Made by a program: the position numbers and the translations under genes. The notes under the pieces were generated by a model, which ran no database searches, was not told the DNA's origin, and was given only the letters and a program-made list of their open reading frames with translations. Shown here in pieces: positions 9,118-10,441 of a DNA stretch of 64,000 nt (the stretch's first letter is position 1; each line of letters starts with the position of its first letter). Source of the DNA: Alphaproteobacteria bacterium. GTDB taxonomy: Bacteria; Pseudomonadota; Alphaproteobacteria; Rhodobacterales; Rhodobacteraceae. The stretch is taken from positions 62,001-126,000 of the forward strand of contig QOQE01000001.1 of NCBI GenBank assembly GCA_003331935.1. Direction: 5' to 3'.

Positions 9118-9747
9118 CTAGATAGTCTTATATACATTAATAGTTCTTCTATTATAACCTTGCTGTCTGGCCTTAATTATCCATGATGACACACTCAAAC
9201 TTGCTTTACTACATACCAGCTCCCATCGTTCCTCTAAAGAAAAACGCTTGTTTTTTGTAGGTGAAGCAATATCAACGTTGGGTTTCATATACCACCTGCT
9301 CTCAACACCTGTTATTTTATTTTGAAAAGAAGAAATTAATAATATTATTGGAAGAGTTGAATCCTTTTCTTCTGCCACATTTTTAAAAGACAATATTATT
9401 CTTCGGATGCTTGAGTATTGAATTGGTTTATGTAGCTCACATACTAAAAGCTCACTTACACCAGATTTTAAAAATTCTTCTATTACCCACATAGACTCTT
9501 GGCTTTTCATTGAATCTACCAAAATAAATTTATTTATATCCACCCACGATATAATTCCATCAGGATAAAGTGAAACAACGCCCTCTTTTCCTCTTATCCA
9601 CGTAATATAACTTTTAATATTTCTTGCAATCATAAGCGCAAAAATGAACCTTGATGGTCCTGCTATCTGATGAACACTTCCTCTCTTGAGGAACAATCCT
9701 GGCAAAAACTCTAGGTATTTAATCTCAGAGAACCTATGGTAATCCAT
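9118..9747 (-). CDS. ImuA/RecA-fold-like protein behind an SOS box
   Basis: 209 residues. I read it as a diverged member of the ImuA (COG4544, SulA-like) branch of the RecA fold. HQIAGPSRFIFALMIA at 26-41 aligns with the position of a nucleotide-binding loop but lacks the GKT/S signature. ITWI (48-51), SLYPDGI (59-65), KFILVDS (73-79), SMWVIEEFLKSG (85-96) and SIRRIILS (113-120) follow the strand and helix order of ImuA. The best independent support is a LexA-type box at 9765-9779 placed over its promoter. ImuA normally sits with imuB and dnaE2, and neither is in this window. A role in DNA damage tolerance is an inference, and the family call is moderate because it comes from motif spacing, not a search. 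Confidence 0.6.
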   Translation of the reverse strand: MDYHRFSEIKYLEFLPGLFLKRGSVHQIAGPSRFIFALMIARNIKSYITWIRGKEGVVSLYPDGIISWVDINKFILVDSMKSQESMWVIEEFLKSGVSELLVCELHKPIQYSSIRRIILSFKNVAEEKDSTLPIILLISSFQNKITGVESRWYMKPNVDIASPTKNKRFSLEERWELVCSKASLSVSSWIIKARQQGYNRRTINVYKTI

Positions 9748-9764
9748 GTAATATCTTAATTTTT

Positions 9765-9779
9765 GTTCTTCATTTGTTC
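9765..9779 (-). promoter_or_regulatory. LexA (SOS) box, GTTC-N7-GTTC
   Basis: The sequence GTTCTTCATTTGTTC is an exact match to the alphaproteobacterial LexA consensus, a direct repeat of GTTC with 7 bases between. Read with the gene it is GAAC-N7-GAAC. It lies immediately downstream of the predicted -10 element and 18 bp before the ATG of the ImuA-like gene, where a repressor would block the start point. Confidence 0.75.
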
Positions 9780-9781
9780 TT

Positions 9782-9810
9782 TATATAATCCGATTATGTC
9801 GCGAAGACAA
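9782..9810 (-). promoter_or_regulatory. Promoter of the ImuA-like gene
   Basis: On the minus strand TTGTCT (9805-9810) and TATATA (9782-9787) are separated by exactly 17 bp. The LexA box begins directly after the -10 element, so the predicted start point falls inside the operator. The gene thus appears to have its own promoter, separate from the cytochrome gene upstream. Confidence 0.65.
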
Positions 9811-9827
9811 ATATTAATCAATATTTT

Positions 9828-10349
9828 TTAATCAGATAAAGTGTTTAAGTATTCAATCAAATCTGCTCGATCTTTATCCTTCTTAAGACCAGCAAAACTC
9901 ATTGCAGTTCCAGGAGCATACTCGGAAGGCTTGGTGAGATATTTATTAAGCTCTTCTATACTCCAGACACCTTCTAAACCCATAAGTGCTTTAGAATACT
10001 TAAATCCTTCTATAGCCCCTATATCTCGATTTATAACCTTGTAAAGATGAGGGCCAACCCCGTTTGCTCCGTCGTCTAGCTTGTGACAGGACTTACATTT
10101 ACCGAAAACCTTCTTACCCTTTTCTATATCTGCACTAGCGAGCAACGTAGCGAAATCAACAACCGTCTCAATGCTTTCTTCCTCTGCATCGGCACTATCT
10201 TCAATTTCTAGATAATAGGCCAATTTTTGCTCTCCATAGTAATCATCATCACTATGGTAAATTATTTCAGTGCCCCAATTTAATAACAAAAAGAATAGAA
10301 AAGCTCCACAAAGGGCTCCACCAATCTTAGTCCACTCGAAGGTATCCAT
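9828..10349 (-). CDS. Membrane-anchored class I cytochrome c
   Basis: I place the start at the ATG of 10347-10349 (173 residues), preceded by AGGAAC, not at the TTG 24 bases upstream. An uncleaved N-terminal membrane helix (about 9-30) is followed by an acidic linker rich in Asp and Glu. A heme domain then carries CKSCH at 85-89 and the probable axial methionine in PGTAMSFAG near 150. This layout matches the CycM/c552-like anchored cytochromes of Alphaproteobacteria, which carry electrons from the bc1 complex to terminal oxidase in the periplasm. It is divergent from pheA, a common arrangement in the class. Confidence 0.92.
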   Translation of the reverse strand: MDTFEWTKIGGALCGAFLFFLLLNWGTEIIYHSDDDYYGEQKLAYYLEIEDSADAEEESIETVVDFATLLASADIEKGKKVFGKCKSCHKLDDGANGVGPHLYKVINRDIGAIEGFKYSKALMGLEGVWSIEELNKYLTKPSEYAPGTAMSFAGLKKDKDRADLIEYLNTLSD

Positions 10350-10441
10350 ATTTCTGTTCCTAAATCCAAACAATACCTATATGTTATATAAAAAATTGAA
10401 AAATATTCTACAACTGATTTAAAAAAAGAGCGCGACAAAAT

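Follow-up and report, generated by a model that had tools for sequence, protein, structure and literature searches.

A divergent ImuA encoded apart from imuB and dnaE2, with a conserved candidate SOS box, in an uncultured lineage of Rhodobacteraceae

The stretch of DNA analysed here (64,000 nucleotides of contig QOQE01000001.1, hereafter the window) comes from an assembly of 1.56 Mb in 28 contigs that is about 90% complete. On its minus strand, at positions 9118–9747, lies an open reading frame of 209 amino acids, which the frame itself, the predicted fold and an alignment with cassette-encoded counterparts identify as imuA, coding for a P-loop-less protein of the RecA fold. A cytochrome c gene (9828–10373, minus strand; PF00034, 1.7e-10) is found upstream, and the neighbour on the other side is an oxoprolinase/hydantoinase-like gene, a name given by eye, as were those of pheA, recG, moeA and the recA of this genome. 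Homologous loci were compared as the best 80 of 216 by likeness to the query protein, a choice that favours the unlinked type, and 15 of these 80 belong to the same genomes as the genus rows of the imuA search. Within the genus the location is fixed, with the cytochrome c and pheA genes as neighbours of imuA at 15 of 15 loci; outside it both neighbours occur at 1 of 65 loci (L125), and synteny is mostly absent. As had been proposed in the original prediction, the gene stands apart from its classical partners: neither imuB nor dnaE2 was found near it at any of the 80 loci, for which up to 6 kb were fetched on each side.

A candidate LexA/SOS box occupies positions 9765–9779, 17 bp from the ATG of imuA, and reads GAACAAATGAAGAAC in the direction of the gene (minus strand) and GTTCTTCATTTGTTC on the plus strand, which confirms the exact box claimed before, of the form GAAC-N7-GAAC. 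Two putative promoter elements, read from the sequence and each matching the consensus weakly, are seen on the same strand at 9782–9787 (-10, TATATA) and 9805–9810 (-35, TTGTCT). The 17-bp spacing announced for this promoter agrees with these positions. By our own count the pair agrees with the textbook consensus at 8 of 12 positions, and an automatic promoter scan chose TTGATT-17-CATAAT instead, for which reasons TTGTCT-17-TATATA is regarded as a plausible, putative promoter of imuA. With the elements at these positions, transcription would begin inside the box.

The presence of the box is in itself weak evidence, since its counts lie near or below those of chance and control. The pattern occurs twice in the window against 1.26 expected, with 36 of 100 shuffles reaching two, and 28 sites were found genome-wide in comparison with 44 for the backward control; counting was consequently rejected as a measure of significance. 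The box is taken as real because it is conserved among the orthologues of the genus and at related loci, as the idea of a damage-inducible gene had anticipated. In this regard, a search of the 22 genus genomes recovered imuA in 20 and missed it in two that are 71% and 65% complete. All 20 orthologues have the box no more than about 65 bp from the matched start, and its half-sites are invariant in the genus while much of the sequence around them varies. Ten further homologues from the family gave the box within 300 bp in seven cases, the three without it being all cassette-type. Moreover, GAAC-N7-GAAC was present within 140 bp at every one of the 80 best loci out of 216, mostly from Rhodobacteraceae, one of which (L141) carries an additional box in the GTTC orientation. 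The backward motif appeared at none of these 80, and other tiles of 280 bp were positive in 11 of 2485 cases, a background drawn from the 65 non-genus loci only. The closest matches among these best 80 of 216 are uncultured Alphaproteobacteria with AG- isolate names, which we take to be marine single-cell genomes, followed mostly by Rhodobacteraceae such as Ruegeria, Roseovarius and Planktomarina. A LexA repressor is encoded in the same genome (TIGR00498, 190 bits against a cut-off of 111), and control of imuA by LexA through the predicted box is likely.

The predicted structure of the protein (pLDDT 85.5, pTM 0.84) has RecA as its best PDB match, with a Z score of 18.8 over 180 aligned residues and an rmsd of 2.9 (1xp8), and Foldseek gave 1e-9; all 50 rows among the matches listed by Foldseek and VIA-align are RecA. 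A PDB profile search also retrieved RecA at 1e-22 (A1) and 1e-12 (A2) from entries with fused RecA copies, together with single RecA chains at 1e-4 to 0.8 (A1) and 0.003–0.005 (A2) and, in A1, a few non-RecA chains at 0.4 to 0.8. The fold is thus assigned on the predicted model, since the low E-values of the profile search come from the fused entries. The order of motifs equals that of the ImuA proteins encoded directly before imuB-dnaE2 in three genomes (G030, G023 and G033), and the 65 ImuA rows used for the structure alignment, out of 81 available, share the invariant positions H26, G30, W50, E90, E91, L93, G96, R115, R116, L119, E149, R151, W152 and W175. The suspected kinship with ImuA and RecA, originally advanced from motif spacing, is therefore upheld by both fold and motif order.

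In comparison with RecA, the fold is shared and the protein is shorter (209 residues against 353), its alignment beginning near RecA residue 30. Its P-loop, shorter than in RecA, is devoid of GK[ST], and at Walker B a Glu aligns with the position of the RecA Asp, an Asp that stays in many homologues. The absence of a working P-loop, correctly foreseen, extends to the relatives: none of the 80 best loci out of 216 has [AG]xxxxGK[ST] where the P-loop would lie, with one stray match elsewhere in L123, and the pattern occurs nowhere in the protein of 30 out of 30 genomes. Two publications (PMC6511836, PMC12926913) present the loss of the P-loop as characteristic of ImuA1 and ImuA2 proteins, and together with the 80 homologues this makes it a trait of the family and no oddity of this gene.

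Automatic models were less informative. NF033429, the strict ImuA model of NCBIfam, gave 15.9 bits for this protein, under its cut-off of 150, and also 25–35 bits for three cassette-encoded ImuAs and 27–43 for seven unlinked ones, all far below that value. Since ImuAs from cassettes of the same family reach only 25–35 bits, the cut-off is set too high for this clade. Pfam returned no match, and a scan of viral contigs no relative. SulA is another SOS-induced, P-loop-less relative of RecA, and a SulA-like inhibitor of cell division had to be weighed for this reason of fold. Weak matches to SulA models (the E. coli-type model or its kin) were indeed obtained for 6 of 10 homologues, at E-values from 6.8e-5 to 0.18, and the Pseudomonas putida imuA gene was first annotated as sulA, according to a 2012 review (PMC3901139). 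Nevertheless, the present protein matches no SulA model at an E limit of 10, under HMMER filters that drop most matches above about 0.1, and the ImuA model outscores every SulA model in 10 of 10 homologues. The co-occurrence of ImuA with ImuB and the existence in the genus of a small SOS-boxed membrane peptide better suited to inhibit division, both considered below, also speak against a SulA-like role, which we hold to be very nearly negligible. Altogether, the gene is a divergent, relocated ImuA of the known mutasome.

Its divergence is high, with identities down to 43% within the genus and of 25–35% outside it, as might be expected from the decaying relic of a lost cassette. Against such decay, no internal stop was found in any of the 20 genus matches, and the median dN/dS within the genus is 0.22 (142 usable pairs), a sign of purifying selection. 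The invariant half-sites of the box and the intact reading frames of imuB and dnaE2 elsewhere in the genome point the same way, and a relic, already largely refuted, retains hardly any credibility.

The supposed orphan has its partners in the same genome. A scan of the remaining contigs recovered imuB, dnaE2 and lexA, the first two in an operon on another contig in the order imuB (C25:11695), methyltransferase gene and dnaE2 (C25:14313), the last of these encoding a DnaE2 with 1122 bits against a cut-off of 939. An SOS box overlaps the start of imuB, and all 17 genus loci in which that start is complete retain it (L063, where imuB is cut by the contig end, was left out). RecA is encoded by a separate gene with its own SOS box and an intact P-loop, GPESSGKT, and a single match to ImuA was found in the whole genome. 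With imuB, dnaE2 and lexA all on other contigs, the apparent orphan becomes part of a dispersed and strictly co-occurring set: the imuA described here, the only one found in the genome, is placed away from imuB and dnaE2 and, with high probability, kept in the same LexA-type regulon.

A possible site of contact with the partner was recognized in ImuB itself. Residues 410–439 of the ImuB of this genome align with residues 11–40 of its own RecA, and 1 of 2000 shuffles aligned as well. A strict pattern for this RecA N-terminal (RecA-NT) motif is found in 16 of 27 ImuBs, and by eye a related segment is present in all 27 aligned sequences, which also carry a C-terminal stretch GPER[IV]AxEWW. In mycobacteria, according to a 2024 paper (PMC11791113), neither ImuA' binding nor a functional mutasome is possible without the RecA-NT motif. 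At ImuB residues 244–248 of the genus (L046–L062), the clamp-like QLNLF is found in 2 of 17 proteins and LLNLF in the other 15, a change that may weaken clamp binding or shift it to a different site.

The co-occurrence of the three proteins was followed in 120 genomes of the family, each at least 90% complete, with DnaE2 counted as present at E below about 1e-99 and ImuB at E up to 1e-3. ImuA was detected in 99 of them (100 before G134 was dropped, because its match is RecA itself), accompanied by ImuB in 99 of 99 and by DnaE2 in 96 of 99; the association of ImuA with ImuB has a Fisher p of 3e-10. All three genes are missing in 11 of the 120 genomes, 10 others have ImuB and DnaE2 with ImuA undetected, and in three of the 99 ImuA and ImuB are present but DnaE2 is not clearly recognizable. 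In G092, rated 100% complete, ImuA and ImuB are encoded 2.1 Mb apart, and no DnaE2-like match exceeded the strength typical of a replicative polymerase (E 1e-69). The evolutionary distances of ImuA and ImuB are correlated (r 0.98 for 24 genomes, 0.87 for the 9 outside the genus), a pattern to which common ancestry contributes besides any physical contact, and which it could also produce alone.

These data bear directly on the suggestion that the protein is a damage-induced factor acting alone. Such a factor would act on RecA without ImuB, for example by capping its filaments or damping recombination, and the RecA fold, the isolated locus and work on Myxococcus, cited in the same 2024 paper (PMC11791113) as indicating that ImuA meets RecA and seemingly suppresses recombination, would all suit it. 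Action of this kind is nonetheless quite improbable as the main role: ImuA was never found without ImuB, it is absent together with ImuB and DnaE2 from 11 genomes, and ImuB bears a RecA-NT-like motif. The stand-alone proposal is not supported, because the partners are present in the same genome, imuB with an SOS box of its own, and ImuA was detected only where ImuB was. A remote polymerase, the other option offered with that proposal, is likely instead, with dnaE2 on another contig. A second role of ImuA on RecA may exist besides the mutasome, and ImuA most likely works with ImuB and DnaE2 rather than alone.

We therefore favour, with considerable confidence, an ImuA that would serve as a RecA-like structural subunit, binding ImuB and supporting DnaE2 in damage-induced synthesis, by analogy with known mutasomes. 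DNA damage would activate RecA and lead to the cleavage of LexA, upon which imuA, recA and the imuB-methyltransferase-dnaE2 operon would be induced together from their separate loci. The P-loop-less ImuA would then bind the RecA-N-terminus-like motif of ImuB, an inactive Y-family protein, and the pair would assist DnaE2, an error-prone polymerase, where the template is damaged. While the fold, the box, the partners and their co-occurrence were observed directly in this analysis, we infer LexA binding, ImuA–ImuB binding and bypass with mutagenesis from mycobacteria and other bacteria. Counting against this mutasome role are the model score (15.9 of 150 bits), the frequencies of the strict RecA-NT pattern (16/27) and of QLNLF (2/17), and the genomes with ImuB and DnaE2 in which ImuA is not detected (10/120) or with ImuA in which DnaE2 is not clear (3/99).

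The separation of imuA is an ordinary arrangement among the relatives of the host. Among the genomes that have the complete set of three, the distance could be placed in 95: imuA and imuB are neighbours (<3 kb) in 43 of these and non-adjacent in 52, multi-copy ImuB or DnaE2 genomes being judged by one copy and G124 not being placed, as its ImuB row is missing from the listing. In nine of the 52 a single contig carries both genes, separated by 10.6 kb to 1.9 Mb, and in 43 they are on different contigs, some of these cases being possible contig-end effects. Three cassette-type genomes group together in both the ImuA and ImuB trees, with long-branch warnings on both, and their type differs in the placement of boxes: no exact box precedes cassette imuA within 300 bp in 3 of 3 scanned. 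In all four cassette-type loci L070–L073, the start position of imuB is preceded at about 26 bp by an exact SOS box that, judged by eye, falls within the 3' end of imuA, a position which could have eased the split.

The dispersal of the cassette is reportedly treated in work by Erill from 2006. Dispersal of imuA, imuB and dnaE2 gene by gene, with their own boxes, is already known: according to the 2012 review (PMC3901139), each gene may occupy a separate locus behind an SOS box of its own. A cassette of the imuA-imuB-dnaE2 type is described on a Dinoroseobacter plasmid in another publication (PMC9426580), and the main text of a study of LexA sites in the same Dinoroseobacter species leaves imuA unmentioned (PMC6473078). 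A mainly open-access literature search, partly on incomplete texts, retrieved no account of the imuA split in Rhodobacterales.

With respect to the imuA-imuB-dnaE2 cassette of Caulobacter and other proteobacteria, as portrayed in the two publications on ImuA groups (PMC6511836, PMC12926913), the host has the same three proteins and LexA-type boxes, and shares the P-loop-less ImuA and an ImuB with a RecA-NT-like motif and C-terminal domain. Unlike the cassette, the host has imuA on another contig with its own box and a methyltransferase gene between imuB and dnaE2. The split is also different from that of Mycobacterium tuberculosis, where imuA'-imuB lies apart from imuC (PMC3901139), whereas here imuA is separate and imuB and dnaE2 form one operon; in many relatives of the host all three genes were found apart.

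Other candidate members of the regulon were seen alongside. The gene between imuB and dnaE2 (L043 4406–5287, on C25 in the host) encodes a class I methyltransferase of 293 aa, present in the host and in 13 of 13 fetched genus genomes, with a dN/dS of 0.11 and an identity of 90–93%, in comparison with 76–87% for imuB. A remodelled SOS mutasome, in which ImuA is encoded apart and this methyltransferase is a fourth damage-induced component modifying the complex, the clamp or the DNA, would be an unlikely, speculative extension. An ORF of 102 aa without a Pfam match (L087 1181–1489; C25:7367–7672 in the host) occurs in 14 of the 22 genomes of the genus, and all 14 carry a box immediately ahead of it, here in the reverse (GTTC) orientation. 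Finally, a 38-aa peptide with one hydrophobic span (L091 1501–1668; C27:9033 in the host, downstream of a recG-like gene) is preceded by three GTTC half-sites with an 11-bp period and a GGAG-type ribosome-binding site; it was found in 13 of 22 genus genomes (L201–L208, L210, L212–L215) with a pN/pS of 0.32, and G008 (L216) has a diverged peptide behind similar half-sites. The peptide could be a small toxin, or a membrane peptide of the SOS response comparable to SidA, the Caulobacter division inhibitor described as a 29-aa membrane protein (PMC4211646), which it resembles in size and regulation only. The three genes may be new as parts of the SOS regulon, and they are more curious than imuA itself, which is otherwise expected biology.

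In this line, NCBI's ImuA model misses the ImuA of the host clade, and the locus offers a useful case of an operon broken up with its co-regulation kept. A streamlined, uncultured lineage thereby joins the bacteria that are likely to have SOS-induced mutagenesis.
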